From contig JAUIAZ010000006.1 of assembly GCA_030427465.1 (NCBI GenBank), forward strand, positions 1-32,588: a stretch of 32,588 nucleotides of DNA, in the 5' to 3' direction. This document shows positions 20,340 through 30,936 of the stretch, in pieces; the stretch's first letter is position 1; each line of letters opens with the position of its first letter. The notes beneath the pieces were generated by a model. The model searched no databases and was not told where the DNA came from. It saw only the letters and a program-made list of their open reading frames with translations. The translations under genes were made by a program, and so were the position numbers. The DNA is from Gammaproteobacteria bacterium (GTDB taxonomy: Bacteria; Pseudomonadota; Gammaproteobacteria; Pseudomonadales; Oleiphilaceae).

Positions 20340-20831
20340 ATGACAGAATTTAAGCTCAATGGGAAGGTGGTAAAAACCAGTGCACCGGATGATACGCCTT
20401 TGTTGTGGATCATTCGTGACGAATTCAAACTTAAAGGTACCAAGTTTGGTTGTGGTATTGCGATGTGCGGTGCCTGCACGGTGCATTTAAATGGTAATGC
20501 TATCCGTTCTTGCTCCTATCCGGTCAGCCTCGTCAACAATGCCGAAATTACAACCATTGAGGGATTGAACAATGAACACCCCGTACAGCAGGCCTGGGTC
20601 GAGGAACAGGTGCCCCAGTGCGGTTACTGCCAGTCAGGACAGATCATGCAGGCAGTTTCCCTGCTGGATATGAACCCGAGCCCCAGCGATGAGGACATTG
20701 CCAATCACATGAACTCCAACCTCTGCCGATGCATGGCCTACCGCCGTATCCAGAAAGCGGTCAGACGAGCTTCCAACAAACTGGTTGTTCAAAACCATGT
20801 TCCGGACAGCAGCAGAAAGGAGGAAGCCTGA
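20340..20831 (+). CDS. 2Fe-2S subunit of a molybdenum hydroxylase (IorA/aldehyde oxidase type)
   Basis: This subunit passes electrons from the molybdenum cofactor of the large subunit. The 163 residues show both 2Fe-2S sites of the family: the ferredoxin-type cluster with Cys38, Cys43, Cys46 and Cys58 (CGIAMCGACTVH... C), and the second cluster with Cys94, Cys97, Cys129 and Cys131 (CGYCQSGQ... CRC). Length is usual. It has no export signal of its own, although its partner has a Tat signal, so it probably crosses the membrane bound to the large subunit. The ATG follows AAGGGGGAGAAG. The large-subunit gene starts one base after the stop. The substrate is not readable; relatives act on isoquinoline, aldehydes or other N-heterocycles. 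Confidence 0.94.
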   Translation: MTEFKLNGKVVKTSAPDDTPLLWIIRDEFKLKGTKFGCGIAMCGACTVHLNGNAIRSCSYPVSLVNNAEITTIEGLNNEHPVQQAWVEEQVPQCGYCQSGQIMQAVSLLDMNPSPSDEDIANHMNSNLCRCMAYRRIQKAVRRASNKLVVQNHVPDSSRKEEA

Positions 20832-20832
20832 G

Positions 20833-23124
20833 ATGAATTCAATCAAAGCCGCAAGACAAGGCATGAAGCTGACTCGCCGGAGTTTCCTCATCGGGTCCGT
20901 AGGGGGATCCATGATAATGGCCTTTGCACCCGGAGCCCTGGCTGCAGCATCAGCGTCCGACTCACTTAAGGACAAGGTCTTCGCACCCACCGTCTGGTTC
21001 GAAATCGATACCAGCGGTGCGGTATCAGTCAATGTCGCCAAAGCCGAGATGGGGCAGCATGTCGGCACGGCACTGGCCCGCATTGTGGCGGATGAACTGG
21101 GGGCTGACTGGGAGAAAGTCAGCATCCGCCATGTGGATACTGACCCCAAGTGGGGCTATATGGTAACGGGCGGGTCCTGGTCTGTTTTTACCTCCTATAA
21201 GCCCCTTTCACAGGCCGGAGCGGCCGGACGGATTGCCCTCATAGAGGCTGCTGCAGGGTTAAAAGGGGTGGATGCCGGGGACTGTGATACAGAAAATGGT
21301 TTTGTGGTCACGCCGAAAGGAAAAGTCGGCTTTGGAGAACTGGTACGTGTTGCTGAGTTCAATCGCAGTTTCAGCGAGGATGAATTGCAGGGACTCCCTC
21401 TGAAGAATCCGGAGAATTACCGGCTTGTAGGCAAATCGTCCACCGCGCTTGATATACCCCCAAAGACCAACGGCACAGCTGAGTACGGAATTGATGTGGA
21501 AATAGAGGGTATGATCTATGCCCGGCCCGTAATACCGCCTACCCGCTATGGCAGCAAGGTCGTCAGTGTAGATGATGCCGGCGCCAGGAATTTGCGCGGC
21601 TACCTGGGTTACGAGAAGCTCACAGACCCCAGCGGAACCATCGAAGGATGGCTGGTTGTACTGGCAAAGGATTACCCGACCGCGATCAAGGCTGCCGATA
21701 CGATTCAGGTGAAATACGATGCTGGGCAGACGGCCGGAGTCTCTGAGGACGATATTCTGAAGGAAGGCCGGCGTCAGGTGGAGGACCCGAACGAGGGGGC
21801 CCTGTTTGTCGATGAGGGTGATTACAGTGAGGCCCGGAGGTCAGCCAAAAGGCTGGTTGAAGCTACCTACATCACCAATACGGCGATGCATTTTGCTCTG
21901 GAGCCTATGAATGCCACGGCACATTTTGATGGCGGGATATGGCATATCCATGGTGGTAATCAGTGGCAGGGATTGACTCTGCCAACACTCGCCAAAGCGC
22001 TTGAAGTGGCCGAAGACAAGGTTGTCATGCATCAGTACTTTCTGGGAGGTGGTTTTGGCCGGAGACTGTGGGGGGACTATATGATTCCTGCAGCCCTAAC
22101 GGCAAAACAGACCGGCAAGCCAGTAAAGCTTATATTTACCCGCGCTGATGATTCCCGCTTTGATCAGGTGCGCTCAGCCTCGGTATCCCGTTTTCAGGCT
22201 ACTTATGATGCAAGTGGACAGTTTACGGGAATGGAGCATGCTTTTTCAGCGGGTTGGCCCACCATGGCCATGGCACCGCCCTTTATGGCCGACAGTGTCG
22301 ATAAGAAAGCCAAGGTAGACATGTTCAGTGCCAGTGGGGCTGACCACTGGTATAGCATGCCAAACCACCGGGCTATTGCGATCAATAATGATCTGGCCCA
22401 GAGAACATTCCTGCCAGGCTGGCTGCGCTCAGTCGGTCAGGGCTGGATCGTCTGGGGCCTGGAGTCCTTTATCGATGAGGCAGCACAGGGTGCCGGTGTC
22501 GACCCGTTGGAGTTCCGGATCCGCTTGCTTGACGGGGCCGGCAAACAGGCCGGCAAGGCGCCTGAAAGCGTTGGAGGTGCCAAGCGCCTGAGAAATACCC
22601 TGGAGGTATTGAAGAAGCGTATTGGCTACGGTAAAGCCTTGCCAAAAGACGAGGGCATCGGGATTTCGGTCACAGCCGGACAGGAGCGCACCATGCCAGC
22701 ATGGATTGCAACGGCTGCTCATATCCGGCTGGATCGTGAAAGTGGCAAGATCCATGTCATGAAGATCACCATGGTGGTGGATGGTGGCGTGATCGTTCAC
22801 CCGGACGGTGCACTGGCGCAGCTCGAGGGTAGTGCCTTCTGGGGTGTGAGCCTTGCTCTGCATGAGTACACCCGCTTTGAAAATGGCGAGGTGAAGAATG
22901 TCAATCTGAACACCTATCAGCCGCTCAGAATGAACGAGATTCCGGATCTCGATATCCAATTCGTTGAAAGCAACGAAGTTCCGGTCGGCCTCGGGGAGCC
23001 CGGGGTGATCGGGATTGCGCCGGCGATCGGGAATGCGGTATTCAACGCAGTGGGGATTCGTTTGCGGGAACTGCCGATGACTCCGGAAAGGGTTAAAGTC
23101 GCGCTGACGGAAAAGGTGGGTTGA
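20833..23124 (+). CDS. Molybdopterin-binding large subunit, Tat-exported (IorB/aldehyde oxidase type)
   Basis: The catalytic subunit of 763 residues hydroxylates its substrate with water at a molybdenum centre. I place the start at ATG 20833 because AAGGAGGAAG lies just upstream; an earlier in-frame ATG overlaps the previous gene. Residues 14-21 are a twin-arginine motif (TRRSFLIG) followed by a hydrophobic stretch and AxA sites, so it is folded with cofactor in the cytoplasm and sent to the periplasm. Family blocks are FLGGGFGRRLWGDY in the middle and VGLGEPGVIGIAPAIGNAVF near the end, the latter containing the catalytic Glu. The single-chain IorB layout is followed. No XdhC-type cofactor-insertion protein is encoded nearby. 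The cytochrome gene follows directly. Confidence 0.94.
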   Translation: MNSIKAARQGMKLTRRSFLIGSVGGSMIMAFAPGALAAASASDSLKDKVFAPTVWFEIDTSGAVSVNVAKAEMGQHVGTALARIVADELGADWEKVSIRHVDTDPKWGYMVTGGSWSVFTSYKPLSQAGAAGRIALIEAAAGLKGVDAGDCDTENGFVVTPKGKVGFGELVRVAEFNRSFSEDELQGLPLKNPENYRLVGKSSTALDIPPKTNGTAEYGIDVEIEGMIYARPVIPPTRYGSKVVSVDDAGARNLRGYLGYEKLTDPSGTIEGWLVVLAKDYPTAIKAADTIQVKYDAGQTAGVSEDDILKEGRRQVEDPNEGALFVDEGDYSEARRSAKRLVEATYITNTAMHFALEPMNATAHFDGGIWHIHGGNQWQGLTLPTLAKALEVAEDKVVMHQYFLGGGFGRRLWGDYMIPAALTAKQTGKPVKLIFTRADDSRFDQVRSASVSRFQATYDASGQFTGMEHAFSAGWPTMAMAPPFMADSVDKKAKVDMFSASGADHWYSMPNHRAIAINNDLAQRTFLPGWLRSVGQGWIVWGLESFIDEAAQGAGVDPLEFRIRLLDGAGKQAGKAPESVGGAKRLRNTLEVLKKRIGYGKALPKDEGIGISVTAGQERTMPAWIATAAHIRLDRESGKIHVMKITMVVDGGVIVHPDGALAQLEGSAFWGVSLALHEYTRFENGEVKNVNLNTYQPLRMNEIPDLDIQFVESNEVPVGLGEPGVIGIAPAIGNAVFNAVGIRLRELPMTPERVKVALTEKVG

Positions 23125-23126
23125 CC

Positions 23127-23813
23127 ATGACTATTCGAATATTTGTCAGCGCGGTGTTGACAGCTTCTGTTTTCCTGTCATCACAGATCCAGGCGGATGC
23201 CTATTCCGAGTATCGTGAAAATCCGTCAGCAGACACCGCTTTCGCCTACATTCATCAGGTGGCCTCACACCCGCGCTGCGGCAATTGTCATGGCGCTGTA
23301 GAAAATGGACTGCACAGACCAACGGTGGGGGACCGGAGAAAAATTCATCCGATGAATATCAGCTTTATCCATAATTTGGTGCTCCGGGCTGAAGGCGACG
23401 GATTTGTGCAGATACCGGATACGGCTCAGCCGGTTAACTGCCGTAGCTGTCATCACAACAGCAACGGCGCCAGCCCTGGTATGCCGCCCGGAGCCGCTAA
23501 TGATCTGATGCCAGGATTTGTATGGCACATGCCGCCGGTGTCCATGCTGCTGCCGGCAGACATCAGCCCGGCAATGCTGTGTGAGAAATGGCTGGATCCC
23601 GCCAGCAACAGCTTTCTGGCCGTGCGGGGAGGGCGCGATGACATGAAAACCTTCGAGAAGGAATTTGTTCATCATGCCAGTGATGACCCCCTGGTGCGCT
23701 GGTCCTGGAACCCGGGACCGGGCCGGACCCCCGCGCCGGGAACTCATGCCGATTTTGTGGCTGCGATGAAGCTGTGGATCCGGAACGGGGCGGCATGCCC
23801 GGATCCGTCCTAG
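23127..23813 (+). CDS. Periplasmic di-haem cytochrome c, likely electron acceptor
   Basis: The 228-residue protein (ATG 23127; a TTG overlapping the previous stop is the alternative) has a signal peptide (about 1-24, ending QADA) and two haem c motifs, CGNCH (51-55) and CRSCH (105-109). I do not recognise a named family; the region between the motifs, with HPMNISFIHNLVLRAEGDG, and the Pro-rich tail (NPGPGRTPAPGTHADF) look specific to a small cytochrome subfamily. It begins right after the molybdenum subunit stop, so it is the third gene of the operon. By analogy with three-component aldehyde dehydrogenases, it should take electrons from the 2Fe-2S subunit and pass them to the respiratory chain. 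Confidence 0.9.
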   Translation: MTIRIFVSAVLTASVFLSSQIQADAYSEYRENPSADTAFAYIHQVASHPRCGNCHGAVENGLHRPTVGDRRKIHPMNISFIHNLVLRAEGDGFVQIPDTAQPVNCRSCHHNSNGASPGMPPGAANDLMPGFVWHMPPVSMLLPADISPAMLCEKWLDPASNSFLAVRGGRDDMKTFEKEFVHHASDDPLVRWSWNPGPGRTPAPGTHADFVAAMKLWIRNGAACPDPS

Positions 23814-25763: not shown

Positions 25764-26672
25764 TTATCCTCGCGCCCTCCAGGGCTCACAGATCTGTTGC
25801 AGTCGCTCGCGTATCCAGCGGTGCAGTACGTCCTGTCCGGAACGCTGGTGCCAGACTGCGATGACCTCAAAACCCGGTATGGACCGCTCAAGTCCTATCT
25901 CCACCAGTTCCGGATCCGGCAGCAACCGGGAGGGTATGAATCCACACAGATCGCTGCTGGCGATACAGGCCTTCGCTGCGGTGAAAGTCGGTACCGACAA
26001 GACCACATTTCTGGGGAAACCCTGGTGCTCAAACCAGCGACTGGCAGCCCCAGTGAAATCGCCCCGGGAAGGGGATACGACCAGCTGGGGAATGGCAGAT
26101 ACCTCACGCACACTCATCCGTTTTTTCGCCGCAGGATTGCTGACAGAGGCCACACAGATGTAATGCTCCGGGTAGAGCATCAGAGCAGGATAATGTTCGG
26201 GCACAAAATCCGGGTTACTGATCACCAGGTCAACCTCTCCCGTCACCAAAGCGGTTGTTATCTGATCCAGCTCCAGCTTTTTTACCGCCAGCCTGATTCC
26301 CGGCGCTTCCTCACGCAGAACTTTCACGAGATGAGGCAAAATCACCTTCTGCTCCAGATCGGTTGAGCTGACGGTGAAAGTCCGGTCCTGTGTGGCTGGG
26401 TCAAACTGTTCAGGTTGCAGAAGGTCTGCCAGCGCTTCGAGGATATGATCCACTTTCGGTTGCAGCGACTCGGCATAGGGCGTTGGAATCACCCCGTTAC
26501 TGGTGCGAATGAACAGGCGGTCACCCAGTGTGTTCCGCAGCTTACGGAGCTGCTCACTCACCGCCTGCTGGGTAACGCCCATCTGATCAGCCACTCGCGA
26601 TAGGTTGCGTTCCTGTAATAGCCCTTGTAGAACGCGAAGCTGACGGATATCCATTCGGGATAAAAGAGACAT
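25764..26672 (-). CDS. LysR-family transcriptional regulator
   Basis: The 302-residue protein (ATG 26672; a GTG three codons earlier is possible) has a LysR helix-turn-helix at about 5-65 (DIRQLRVLQGLLQERNLSRVADQMGVTQQAVSEQLRKLRNTLGDRLFIRT) and a substrate-binding effector domain to the end, with VDLVISNPDFVPEHYP near the hinge. Its length is typical. It is divergent from the CmcJ-like/ALDH/oxygenase operon, with 93 bases between the starts, the normal arrangement for a LysR regulator and its target. The effector is unknown. It is on the same strand as the peroxiredoxin gene but 117 bases away, with a dyad between them. Confidence 0.93.
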   Translation of the reverse strand: MSLLSRMDIRQLRVLQGLLQERNLSRVADQMGVTQQAVSEQLRKLRNTLGDRLFIRTSNGVIPTPYAESLQPKVDHILEALADLLQPEQFDPATQDRTFTVSSTDLEQKVILPHLVKVLREEAPGIRLAVKKLELDQITTALVTGEVDLVISNPDFVPEHYPALMLYPEHYICVASVSNPAAKKRMSVREVSAIPQLVVSPSRGDFTGAASRWFEHQGFPRNVVLSVPTFTAAKACIASSDLCGFIPSRLLPDPELVEIGLERSIPGFEVIAVWHQRSGQDVLHRWIRERLQQICEPWRARG

Positions 26673-26708
26673 TTGTATCACTCACACCAAGAACTTGTTT
26701 CTCATTGT

Positions 26709-26727
26709 ATCCTGTGTTGGCTAGGAT
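26709..26727. promoter_or_regulatory. Inverted repeat between the LysR gene and its divergent operon
   Basis: ATCCT (26709-26713) and AGGAT (26723-26727) are perfect inverted arms separated by 9 bases, centred between the two divergent starts. The position suits a LysR site, although the usual T-N11-A core is not exact here. Confidence 0.35.
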
Positions 26728-26765
26728 GGCAGCCAGTAAGCCATTCAAACCAGAGGGGGCCAAGT

Positions 26766-27566
26766 ATGTCTTCCGAATATATTGTCAATTATCTGCAGCC
26801 TGGCGGCAGCCCGGTTTACGACCAGCGTCATCTGGGGCCAGGTAGCGAACAACTGGTCGAAAGGGTTGATCAGCAGGTCGTCCGGGTTCAGGACGGTCGC
26901 AGAGAGCCGTTGGCTTTCACGCTCGACAGAAGCGGCTTTGAGCTGGTAGCCGTTGATTTCGGTTTCCATCGTTTTGATCAGGATTCCGAGATACAGCAGG
27001 TGCTGTATCCGAAGGTGATCTCATGGATGAAAACCAGGCTGGGTGCTGCTGAGCTACTGATTTTTGATCACACTTTCCGGTCAAAAAGCCGGTCTGAGCT
27101 GAGCGTGCACAATCGGGCGCCGGTCAAAACGGTACACAATGATTACACGGCCAGTTCAGCTGATCACCGGCTGAGGGAAGAAACCCGGTTGCGGCCGCAA
27201 CTGCGGAATCGACGCTATCAGTTTATCAACCTGTGGATGCCGGTTTACCACCGGGTTGAGGAATCGCCGCTGGCGATGGTCGATCTGCAGTCGGTGGCTC
27301 CGGCTGATTACCACCCGCTGAAATTGATCTACCCCGACCGGGTGGGTGAGCTGGCTGCCATTTCCTATAACCCGGCGCACCGGTGGGTGTATTTTTCCGG
27401 CATGCAACCGGGTGAGGCTCTGCTGCTGAAGGTCTATGACAGCCAGATGCCGCCTGAGCTCAATGGCGTACCCCATTCCGCAGTGGACAGTGTCCGTCCA
27501 CAGGGCTTTGCGAAGGCCCGCAGCAGTCTAGAAATACGCACGATCGCTTTTTTTGAGGAACATTGA
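26766..27566 (+). CDS. CmcJ/NvfI-type Fe(II)/2-oxoglutarate-dependent oxygenase-like protein
   Basis: I start this 266-residue protein at ATG 26766, after GAGGGGGC; the open frame extends upstream without a better start. It resembles the CmcJ/NvfI group, which includes the CmcJ partner of cephamycin 7-methoxylation and the fungal oxygenase NvfI. The likely iron triad is intact: His124 and Asp126 (VHNDYT) and His237 (GVPHSAVD), with Arg258 (EIRTIAFF) placed for 2-oxoglutarate. Other family blocks are QFINLWMPVYHRVEESPLAM and YFSGMQPGEALLLKVYDSQ. It is cytoplasmic. It is first in a three-gene run with an aldehyde dehydrogenase, one base between them, and is probably controlled by the divergent LysR gene. 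The substrate is unknown; a small organic acid or amine degraded by way of an aldehyde is a reasonable guess. Confidence 0.8.
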   Translation: MSSEYIVNYLQPGGSPVYDQRHLGPGSEQLVERVDQQVVRVQDGRREPLAFTLDRSGFELVAVDFGFHRFDQDSEIQQVLYPKVISWMKTRLGAAELLIFDHTFRSKSRSELSVHNRAPVKTVHNDYTASSADHRLREETRLRPQLRNRRYQFINLWMPVYHRVEESPLAMVDLQSVAPADYHPLKLIYPDRVGELAAISYNPAHRWVYFSGMQPGEALLLKVYDSQMPPELNGVPHSAVDSVRPQGFAKARSSLEIRTIAFFEEH

Positions 27567-27567
27567 A

Positions 27568-28905
27568 ATGGCAGTACTTGAATCACTCAACCCGCTCGAT
27601 CAGCGTGTGGTCGGCCGGGTGACGGTCGCATCTGCAAATGACATCGCCGCCCGTGTCAGTGCGGCCAGACAGGCGCAGAGAGCCTGGGCCGGAATAAGTC
27701 TGGAACATCGCTGCGGGCAGATTATACGAGCCTACGAGCAGCTTGGGCCTCATCTGAAAGATCTGGCTCACCTGATCAGTCTGGAAATGGGTAAAGATCT
27801 TCGGCGCGCAGGCTACGAGGCACAAGGGGTCATCCAGAATGCCGCCTATGCGGTTGAGGATGCGATGGCGGCGTTTCAGACCGAGCCGGTCGCGGGAAGA
27901 ACGGTGGTTCAGTACCGTCCGCTGGGTGTGGTGGCGGTTATTTCACCCTGGAACTATCCGCTGGCCATGGCCAACAACCTCATCATTCCGGCATTGGTGG
28001 CAGGGAACAGTGTGATTCTGAAACCATCGGAGAATACACCGCTGGTGGCTGACCTCTTTGTGCGCCAACTGCAGCCTCATTTGCCTGAGAATCTGCTGCA
28101 GGTGGTTCATGGTCAGGCGGAAACAGGAAAGGCACTCGTGCGCTCGGAAATCAATATGGTGGCTTTCACCGGCTCAGTGGCTGCCGGGCGGGACATCATG
28201 GCGGGAGCCGCGCCAGGCCTGAAGCGTCTGGTTATGGAGCTGGGCGGGAATGACCCCATGATCGTGATGCATAACGCTGACATTAAGGCGGCTGCCCGGT
28301 TCGCTGTGGCCAGCGCTTTCGAGAACGCCGGGCAGATGTGTACTTCTACCGAAAGAGTTTATGTGGACCAACGGATAGCGGATCGCTTCTATAAAGAGGT
28401 TGTTACCATCGCCAGTCAGTACCGCACGGGACCCTGGGATCAGCCACGCGTAAACATCGGGCCGCTGGTTAACCAGGCACAGCACCAGAGGGTGGTGCAG
28501 CAGCTCCTCGATGCAGAACAGAAAGGGGCGGCCTTTTTGCTGGGTCGCGCCGTGTATGAGCCGCCTTACATACAGCCGACAGTGGTTAAGGGTCTGACAC
28601 AGGACATGCAACTGGAACAGGAGGAAACCTTTGGTCCGGTGGTGGCCATTGCTGAGTTTACAAGTAAAGACGAAGTGATTACCCGTGCCAACGACTCGAT
28701 TTACGGACTGGGTGCAGTCGTTTTCGGGGGGCAGGGAGCGCGTGAACTGGCTGAGCAACTGGATGTCGGTATGGTGGCCATCAATCAGGGCGTCGGGGGT
28801 ATGGGTGACAGCCCTTGGGTGGGCGCCAAACAGAGTGGTGTCGGTTTTCACGGGTCAAAGGCAGGTCACCGGCAATTTGCCCAGGTTCGAGTGCTTAACC
28901 AGTAA
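27568..28905 (+). CDS. NAD(P)-dependent aldehyde dehydrogenase, succinate-semialdehyde type
   Basis: This 445-residue enzyme oxidises an aldehyde to its acid. The ATG at 27568 is chosen because it is one base after the previous stop; the open frame begins slightly earlier. Asn129 (SPWNYP), Glu224 (MELGGND) and the catalytic Cys258 (NAGQMCTS) are all present, with FTGS and EETFGPVVAI in the right order. The length and the pattern YRPLGVVAVISPWNYPLA are like the short succinate-semialdehyde dehydrogenase group, but the true substrate cannot be read. It stands between two oxygenase-like genes, so it may oxidise an aldehyde released by the first. A strong ribosome binding site (AAGGAGG) for the next gene follows its stop. 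Confidence 0.95.
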   Translation: MAVLESLNPLDQRVVGRVTVASANDIAARVSAARQAQRAWAGISLEHRCGQIIRAYEQLGPHLKDLAHLISLEMGKDLRRAGYEAQGVIQNAAYAVEDAMAAFQTEPVAGRTVVQYRPLGVVAVISPWNYPLAMANNLIIPALVAGNSVILKPSENTPLVADLFVRQLQPHLPENLLQVVHGQAETGKALVRSEINMVAFTGSVAAGRDIMAGAAPGLKRLVMELGGNDPMIVMHNADIKAAARFAVASAFENAGQMCTSTERVYVDQRIADRFYKEVVTIASQYRTGPWDQPRVNIGPLVNQAQHQRVVQQLLDAEQKGAAFLLGRAVYEPPYIQPTVVKGLTQDMQLEQEETFGPVVAIAEFTSKDEVITRANDSIYGLGAVVFGGQGARELAEQLDVGMVAINQGVGGMGDSPWVGAKQSGVGFHGSKAGHRQFAQVRVLNQ

Positions 28906-28917
28906 GGAGGTCCAGCA

Positions 28918-29616
28918 ATGAATGTCACAGTGAATAAGGCCCAGCACGACTTTTTTGTGGTGGCACGCGAACCGGGTGCTGAAAACCCGTCGCTACCCAC
29001 CTGGGCAAACCACACCGGGAACCCGGCCGGTCTGTCTGAAAATCCGGGCTTACCCGAAGTCCTGCGCAGGGAAATCAACGATGTTCCCGGTGCATTTCAG
29101 TTGTTGAATGTGCTGGCACCAGAGGAGTGTCAACGGCTGGTCGAACTCAGTGAACGTTTGGGTTACCTGAAAGATGCCCCTGTATCCCTGCCGCGAGAGG
29201 TTCGCCACAACGACAACGTCACCTGGGTAACTGACGAGGAAACCGACCGCTTGATCTGGAGCCGTGTGGCACACTTCTGCGGTCAAAACCCCGAATGGTT
29301 TCATAACCAGGAAGCAGTTGGTATCAACGCGAGATTTCGTTTTTACCGCTATGGCCCCGGTGACTTTTTCAAGCCGCTCTTGCTGAGCGAGGATTTTGAT
29401 GGCGGAGAGACCCGGTTTTTTGTCCCTTCGGACGATCGGATCGCTTCCCTGAGGAACCGGGAGCCCCTCCGGGAAGTCGATGTCAGAACCCCGGCTGGCG
29501 GGGTCCTTTGTTTTCCGCATGGGCGTCACCCCATGCACTGCCTGCACAGTTCCCAGCCTATCAGGACCGGAACCAAGTACATCATCCGAACTGACATGCT
29601 GTTTACCCTGAAATAA
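28918..29616 (+). CDS. Prolyl-4-hydroxylase-like 2OG oxygenase lacking the HxD segment
   Basis: The 232 residues match the P4Hc-type 2-oxoglutarate oxygenases at both ends: RFRFYRYGPGDFFKP in the middle, then EDFDGGETRFF, FPHGRHPMHCLHSS and GTKYIIRTDMLF. In active members FFKP is followed at once by HxD (usually HTDG or HSDG), then about 30 residues and a strand before the DFDGGETRF block. Here the sequence runs directly from FFKP to LLLSEDFDGGETRFF, with the junction at 29376/29377. Two iron ligands are therefore missing, while the distal His and the 2OG-binding Lys/Arg region remain. The frame is intact and the ribosome binding site is strong, so the protein is probably made but cannot bind iron in the normal way. 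It may be a recent deletion pseudoenzyme, or the deletion may be an assembly error. It ends the LysR-linked operon. Confidence 0.82.
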   Translation: MNVTVNKAQHDFFVVAREPGAENPSLPTWANHTGNPAGLSENPGLPEVLRREINDVPGAFQLLNVLAPEECQRLVELSERLGYLKDAPVSLPREVRHNDNVTWVTDEETDRLIWSRVAHFCGQNPEWFHNQEAVGINARFRFYRYGPGDFFKPLLLSEDFDGGETRFFVPSDDRIASLRNREPLREVDVRTPAGGVLCFPHGRHPMHCLHSSQPIRTGTKYIIRTDMLFTLK

Positions 29617-29646
29617 AGGTATGCCTTCTGTCGGGGGCTCAAGGCT

Positions 29647-30795
29647 TCAGGCGATAGCCCCTAGCAGGATCTCTTCCACGCTCTCTGGTGTAATGTTCCT
29701 GTTCTCGGACAGTGCAGTCATCTTGTGCTTCACCAGGTTGTCCACCACCTGGCGGATAGCGACTGGCTTGTTACCGCCATGCTCCGTAAGTTGGGTGGCT
29801 ACTCCGAGACCCTGGTAGAAAGCTTCAATTGAATCAATGGTTCGCTCAGCCAGATCGCTGCCGCCTTTCAGACCAAAGACATTACGCCCCATCTGCTCGA
29901 GTTTCTCGCGCTTGAATTCTACCTGATGACGTAACAGTGAGGGCTGCACAATTGCCAGCGAACGTGCATGGTCCACGTGCCACAGGGCGGTCAGTTCGTG
30001 GCCGATCATGTGGGTAGACCAGTCCTGCTCAACACCGCTGGCAATCAGACCATTAAGTGCCTGGTTGGCGGCCCACATCAGATTGGCGCGCCAATGGTCA
30101 TCGTCGCGATCTGCGAAGCTCTCACCCAGCTGCCGGAGAGTGCGCAGCAAGGTTTCCGAGTACCCGTCCTGGACCATAGCCCCCTGGGCTTTAGTCAGGT
30201 ACTGTTCGCAGACATGAACCCAAGCGTCAACAATGCCGTTGATCAACTGCTTCTCGGGAAGGGTTTTCATGACATCAGGATCCAGGACGGCGAATTGTGG
30301 TTGCACCAGTGGTGAGGCAAAGGGCATTTTTTCCTGGGTTTCTGATCGCGTAATGACGGAGTTTTCATTGGATTCCGAGCCGGTTGCGGGAATGGTCAGA
30401 ATCACGCCGATGGGCGTGGCCTTCTCCGGCACGTAAGCACCGGTCAGGATGTCCCAGCCATCACCGTCATAGTGTGTAGATGCTGCTACATATTTGGCAC
30501 CATCGATCACTGAGCCGCCACCTACGGCCAGAATGAAATCAACCCCTTGTTCCTTGATGAGGGCAACAGCCTTATCCAGTGTTTCTTTGGTCGGGTTCGC
30601 CTCGACCCCTGAGAACTCAAGCCATTCGTGGCCGTCCATTGCCGCCTGAACCTGTTCGTAGACCCCGTTCTTTTTGATTGAGCCGCCGCCGTAGATCACA
30701 AGAACTTTGCGGTTGGCGGGAATGGCCGAGGAGATCGAGGCAATCTGCCCCTGGCCGAAGAAAATCTGTGTGGCATTGCGATAGCTAAATTTCAT
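29647..30795 (-). CDS. yqhD: YqhD-like iron/zinc-containing alcohol dehydrogenase
   Basis: This enzyme reduces aldehydes with NADPH; E. coli YqhD is a broad aldehyde scavenger. I start at ATG 30795 (MKFSYRNATQIFFGQGQI), after AGGTG; the open frame extends 29 codons further with no family match. The 382 residues contain the nucleotide motif GGGS (92-95, VGGGSVIDGAK) and the metal ligands Asp190, His194, His262 and His276 (VDAWVHVCEQY, STHMIGHE, DHARSL), spaced as in E. coli YqhD (Asp194, His198, His267, His281). It is divergent from an AraC regulator, the same arrangement as yqhD-yqhC in E. coli, so induction by aldehydes is likely. It converges on the 2OG oxygenase gene 30 bases away. Confidence 0.93.
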   Translation of the reverse strand: MKFSYRNATQIFFGQGQIASISSAIPANRKVLVIYGGGSIKKNGVYEQVQAAMDGHEWLEFSGVEANPTKETLDKAVALIKEQGVDFILAVGGGSVIDGAKYVAASTHYDGDGWDILTGAYVPEKATPIGVILTIPATGSESNENSVITRSETQEKMPFASPLVQPQFAVLDPDVMKTLPEKQLINGIVDAWVHVCEQYLTKAQGAMVQDGYSETLLRTLRQLGESFADRDDDHWRANLMWAANQALNGLIASGVEQDWSTHMIGHELTALWHVDHARSLAIVQPSLLRHQVEFKREKLEQMGRNVFGLKGGSDLAERTIDSIEAFYQGLGVATQLTEHGGNKPVAIRQVVDNLVKHKMTALSENRNITPESVEEILLGAIA

Positions 30796-30936
30796 CAGAC
30801 AGCACCTTTTTGCATGACAAATGACTGGAGTGGCATGCATAATAGTCTTGAATAGAGTCCTTTCACAGGTCGGATATTCCAAATTAAATGCCTAATACTA
30901 CAGATCTCGGTGCGGGGGTATGTGAGGAAGCAAGTG

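Follow-up and report, generated by a model that had tools for sequence, protein, structure and literature searches.

In-frame loss of the HxD segment from a prolyl-hydroxylase-like gene in a LysR/CmcJ-ALDH-oxygenase cluster of an Oleiphilaceae genome

Introduction

How does a gene with an open reading frame and a good ribosome binding site come to lack the metal-binding motif of its enzyme family? The question is raised by a prolyl-hydroxylase-like gene in the window analysed here, a 32,588-nt stretch from a gammaproteobacterium of the family Oleiphilaceae (contig JAUIAZ010000006.1 of assembly GCA_030427465.1). The original prediction described an in-frame loss of the HxD segment from the encoded protein and offered three readings of it: a pseudoenzyme retained for another role, a recent deletion still in frame, or an assembly fault.

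Results

Both iron ligands of the HxD motif fall in a single gap

The oxygenase frame opens with ATG and runs uninterrupted for 232 residues, and the AAGGAGG preceding it overlaps the stop codon of the upstream aldehyde dehydrogenase (ALDH) gene at 28903-28905 (Table 1). In the window protein, FFKP (P153, with its last base at 29376) is joined directly to LLLSEDFDGG, of which L154 is the first residue. Alignment with 27 full-length relatives opened one gap of 31 columns (93 nt) in the window protein, beginning at the HxDG motif, which occupies the first four positions of the segment in all 27 relatives, and closing after MTFL or the corresponding residues. Of the three iron ligands to be expected, two fall inside this gap, and the HxD motif by which an active 2OG-Fe(II) oxygenase would be recognized is accordingly absent from the window protein. 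The sequence and the alignment therefore confirm the predicted loss after FFKP; only its amount had been overstated, the missing stretch being 31 residues including HxD rather than HxD plus about 30. Counted over 50 non-window rows, several of which represent one gene two or three times, HxDG is present in 49, the exception being a broken copy (L067). Judged from these alignments, the gap exceeds the ordinary variation among relatives.

The 27 relatives were counted after leaving out the near-duplicate Marinobacter-type copies (L006, L007, L023-L027, L029-L033 and L052), L015, which is cut by a contig end, the broken L067, and the distant relatives L016-L022, L028 and L034-L044; L008 and L053 were both kept, at an identity of 1.00 (rounded). 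L047-L051 are chance pattern matches and L071 stood outside the alignment. The 11 viral relatives are distant (24 to 34% identity), and only L034 entered a count, that of the 50 rows.

The remaining parts were found as originally described: the frame, the ribosome binding site, the distal His and the 2OG-binding segment are all intact in the sequence, and CLHSS...GTKYIIRTD, which contains the distal His (H210 in CLHSS) and the G.KY..R segment, aligns with the 27 relatives. From knowledge of the family, we take H210 to be the third iron ligand and the G.KY..R segment to contact 2OG.

Table 1. Features of the oxygenase gene and of its neighbours in the window.
Feature	Position	Strand	Basis
Divergent LysR-type regulator gene	25764..26681	-	profile match
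CmcJ/NvfI family oxidoreductase gene, open; start probably ATG at 26766	26673..27566	+	NF041278, 225.6 bits vs cut-off 80
Aldehyde dehydrogenase gene, same cluster, open	27553..28905	+	PF00171, 6e-125
Ribosome binding site AAGGAGG, 7 nt 5' of ATG	28904..28910	+	sequence
2OG-Fe(II) oxygenase-like gene (prolyl-4-hydroxylase fold), 232 aa, without 31 internal residues	28918..29616	+	ORF, alignment; Pfam and structure matches of intact relatives
Codons for RHNDNVTW (R96-W103), HxD-like conserved motif, not metal site	29203..29226	+	27-relative alignment
Junction P153/L154 of the deletion; 93 nt missing against the 27 intact relatives aligned	29376..29377	+	sequence, alignment
Retained distal His and 2OG-binding segment, codons 207-226 (HCLHSSQPIRTGTKYIIRTD)	29536..29595	+	alignment; roles as known for the family
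Iron-containing alcohol dehydrogenase gene, convergent	29647..30882	-	profile match

The gap coincides with part of the predicted core

The window protein gave no Pfam match at E 0.1, 2OG-FeII_Oxy_3 (PF13640) included; among intact relatives, L009 scored 28.9 bits against this profile, above its cut-off of 27, and the protein of Marinobacter algicola DG893 (L003) scored 23.0 bits, below it. A sequence search of solved structures with the intact L003 protein returned no match at E 1. The fold was assigned from the model of intact L009 (11 sequences, pLDDT 65, pTM 0.70), the best solved-structure matches of which are the bacterial prolyl 4-hydroxylases 5v7y, 5hv4, 5iax and 3itq (3itq, 5hv4 of Bacillus anthracis), with E values from 7.5e-9 to 2.5e-8. 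The identity of the intact relative to these enzymes is about 20%, and the window protein differs from them in lacking the metal motif. In L009 coordinates the gap spans residues 149-179 and takes H149, D151 and 7 of the 9 residues of the predicted core strand 173-181.

Despite this predicted loss from the double-stranded beta-helix core, the model of the window protein (16 sequences, pLDDT 76, pTM 0.77) still matches related folds, albeit more weakly, with a viral prolyl hydroxylase as the best match at E 3.3e-6. Both models are based on shallow alignments, and the confidence of the window model is not below that of the intact one (pLDDT 76 vs 65); since its alignment was built from relatives that possess the segment, it says little about how the shortened protein really folds.

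The oxygenase gene closes a conserved cluster

The gene is the last of a LysR/CmcJ-ALDH-oxygenase cluster, an order common to five other loci (L002, L003, L005, L006 and L007); at L004 the order is CmcJ-ALDH-oxygenase, in an examined stretch that starts just upstream of CmcJ. The M. algicola DG893 locus shares the order, and its family member is 59% identical to the window protein over the match and retains the 31-residue HxDG-to-MTFL segment absent from the window protein. Over CmcJ, ALDH and LysR, the aligned lengths in the window and at this locus differ by no more than 3 residues. Identity of 66-67% over aligned positions to six Marinobacter-type rows, together with the same cluster order, indicates descent within the ALDH-linked oxygenase family.

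Beyond the window, CmcJ matches at E 1e-8 were confined to these Marinobacter-type loci and L023-L027, and L009, L010, L011, L012, L014 and L015 each have an ALDH match and no CmcJ match in the examined stretch, L011 also having a LysR match. An ALDH match at E 1e-40 lies beside 15 of the 27 intact relatives, with none in the examined stretch of the other 12. Because CmcJ is confined to fewer loci, the link with ALDH is the wider of the two. The convergent alcohol dehydrogenase gene probably lies outside the cluster; at E 1e-8 it had no match in the compared loci apart from the window's own.

We found no literature joining prolyl hydroxylase, pseudoenzyme and HxD, and no title naming this oxygenase gene family among those listed.

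Two further observations concern the surroundings. L002 is titled as a Halioglobus MAG, yet its oxygenase is nearly identical to the Marinobacter copies in the alignment, lies with the same cluster genes and is unlike that of Halioglobus pacificus (L008), so that the contig is perhaps mis-binned. Upstream in the window, at 20340-23810, there is a molybdenum hydroxylase-type set, with [2Fe-2S] and molybdopterin-binding subunits and, after them, a frame of 230 aa that matched no Pfam family.

Among the genomes compared, the gap was found in this one only

The genome that contains the window (G000; 3.96 Mb, 535 contigs, 94.28% complete) has one match to the window protein. The intact Marinobacter protein, used as a query against it, retrieved two pieces only, both at this locus and flanking the gap, and the assembly yielded neither a second or intact copy of the gene nor any stray fragment of it. 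Nor did a degenerate pattern, DG..WPG(S), locate the missing piece elsewhere in the genome: its five matches were dismissed as chance, with no in-frame His at the HxD position and stops in all five stretches, and the reversed pattern, used as a control, gave one match.

Of the 163 genomes of the family, 12 including G000 gave a match; five, all from genus g12, carry close full-length copies with HxDG, and a further six carry distant ones, with an identity of 27 to 32%. At E 1e-30, matches were obtained in 16 of the 390 order-sample genomes and 4 of the 369 class-sample genomes, G000 being counted in both. Whether orthologues share the deletion, as had been proposed as a check, can be answered for those compared: no intact relative examined has it. 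Likewise, no second family member with this exact loss was encountered among the relatives examined, in which G000 is the only genome of its genus.

The same oxygenase gene is decaying independently in another genome of the order (G394), where L067, at about 1501-1951 on the reverse strand, consists of pieces in different frames and misses about 59 residues including HxD; no ALDH match was found within the 3297 bases examined there. A plasmid-borne relative with 46% identity is located at 7983-8750 of L071 (plasmid pTHAF190c_b of Vibrio sp. THAF190c), directly 3' of an ALDH gene, and the annotation, which may have gaps, lists no CmcJ gene within 8 kb.

Residues outside the gap are preserved

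When the two columns on each side of the gap are excluded from the 27-relative alignment, the window protein is altered in none of the 42 invariant and none of the 68 nearly invariant columns; in the latter, 9 of the 27 relatives are likewise unaltered, and the others have lost 1 to 12. If each unit of neutral divergence is assumed to bring 2.25 amino-acid changes per codon, the probability of seeing no hit falls to 5% at about 0.02 substitutions per site for 68 codons and at about 0.03 for 42 codons. As no conserved column has changed, the deletion would, if the gene has been drifting freely since, date from within roughly the last 2% of neutral divergence.

The ratio of oxygenase to ALDH divergence, calculated without pairs at an ALDH distance of 0.25 or less, has a median of 0.99 for the window and ranges from 0.81 to 1.19 for 15 others; the window ranks fourth highest of 16, and its gene may, on these sequences, be changing slightly faster. 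Nucleotide differences are mostly at third codon positions, with 76/50/137 at the first, second and third positions relative to L009 (224 codons), 61/43/131 relative to L003 (227 codons) and 77/49/134 relative to L010 (219 codons). A long-standing loss of constraint is rejected, given that all conserved residues off the gap are kept and the ALDH ratio falls inside the span of 0.81 to 1.19. The preserved residues and the ordinary ratio do not, however, show selection after the deletion, because they would look no different after a very recent event or in an artefact.

Discussion

Explanations of the gap

The best explanation, and in our judgement the probable one, is that the last gene of the LysR/CmcJ-ALDH-oxygenase cluster recently lost its function through a deletion. 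Of the three readings originally offered, this one fits best, the gap being unshared by the intact relatives examined and unaccompanied by other visible decay, and the retained pseudoenzyme gained no positive support. A single spontaneous in-frame deletion of 93 nt would have removed the H-x-D iron ligands, the following loop and most of the next core strand. The shortened product would then not hold Fe(II) normally and would probably fold poorly. Since 2OG-Fe(II) oxygenases generally require HxD, activity was presumably lost, and if the cluster encodes a pathway, its oxygenase step would end there with the CmcJ and ALDH genes still open. The broken copy in G394 indicates that this oxygenase gene has also been lost elsewhere. 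Most likely, this uncharacterised member of a known enzyme superfamily is a dead allele of an ordinary sort, or else an artefact. Should the deletion be real, the oxygenase step of such a cluster would have been inactivated very recently, and the gene would provide a natural loss-of-function allele. It also calls for caution, in that a stop-free frame with a good ribosome binding site would pass as a normal gene despite the lost iron site.

The main rival, which we regard as rather unlikely, is an assembly fault, in which the gene is intact in the cells but 93 nt were skipped, or a minority variant chosen, during assembly. The draft state of the genome, with its 535 contigs and 94.28% completeness, is in keeping with such an error, G000 is the sole representative of its genus in the comparison set, and an artefact predicts the unchanged conserved residues seen on both sides of the gap. 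The local sequence speaks against it: there is no repeat at the junction, the only pair detected in 29200-29620 of the present sequence being one of 17 nt elsewhere, and a junction repeat was therefore rejected as the cause of either a deletion or a misassembly, in a scan that covered the DNA still present. The assembly also holds no additional copy or stray piece of the gene, and the neighbouring CmcJ, ALDH and LysR spans match those of M. algicola to within 3 residues.

Selection might instead have kept the protein as a pseudoenzyme with a binding or regulatory role, perhaps towards the oxygenase or dehydrogenase encoded next to it, an alternative to which we give little credence. Its intact frame, ribosome binding site, cluster position and conserved residues off the gap speak for this reading, and an open frame with a good ribosome binding site is also expected of a retained gene. 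The open frame is nevertheless a weak sign of retention, because a third of all random deletions preserve the reading frame. Moreover, the deletion is present in no intact relative examined (the single row of the 50 without HxDG is a broken gene), the predicted core fold is lost along with the ligands, and the best solved-structure match declines from E 7.5e-9 for the intact model to 3.3e-6 for the window model. A pseudoenzyme reading would need the deletion to be common to several lineages. The more specific version, a stable, expressed pseudo-oxygenase that arose in one step, still binds 2-oxoglutarate or the pathway substrate and serves as a partner or sensor for the CmcJ oxygenase or ALDH, is less probable still.

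An HxD-like string outside the gap

The presence of an alternative HxD elsewhere had been named as an observation that would speak against loss of the motif, and one such string, H97-N98-D99, does occur in the window protein. It was rejected as a replacement metal site, as it belongs to a separate conserved segment and HxDG is found elsewhere in 27 of 27 relatives; 19 of them have both HND and the canonical HxDG, and the other 8 have HxDG without HND. That the protein is still an active oxygenase through another metal site, such as this H-x-D string together with the retained distal His, is accordingly highly improbable, given that HND lies in a different conserved segment, that relatives without it keep the canonical site and that those with it have both. 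The RHNDNVTW motif itself is strongly conserved in the oxygenase family and, often mimicking HxD (19 of 27), could mislead motif scans.
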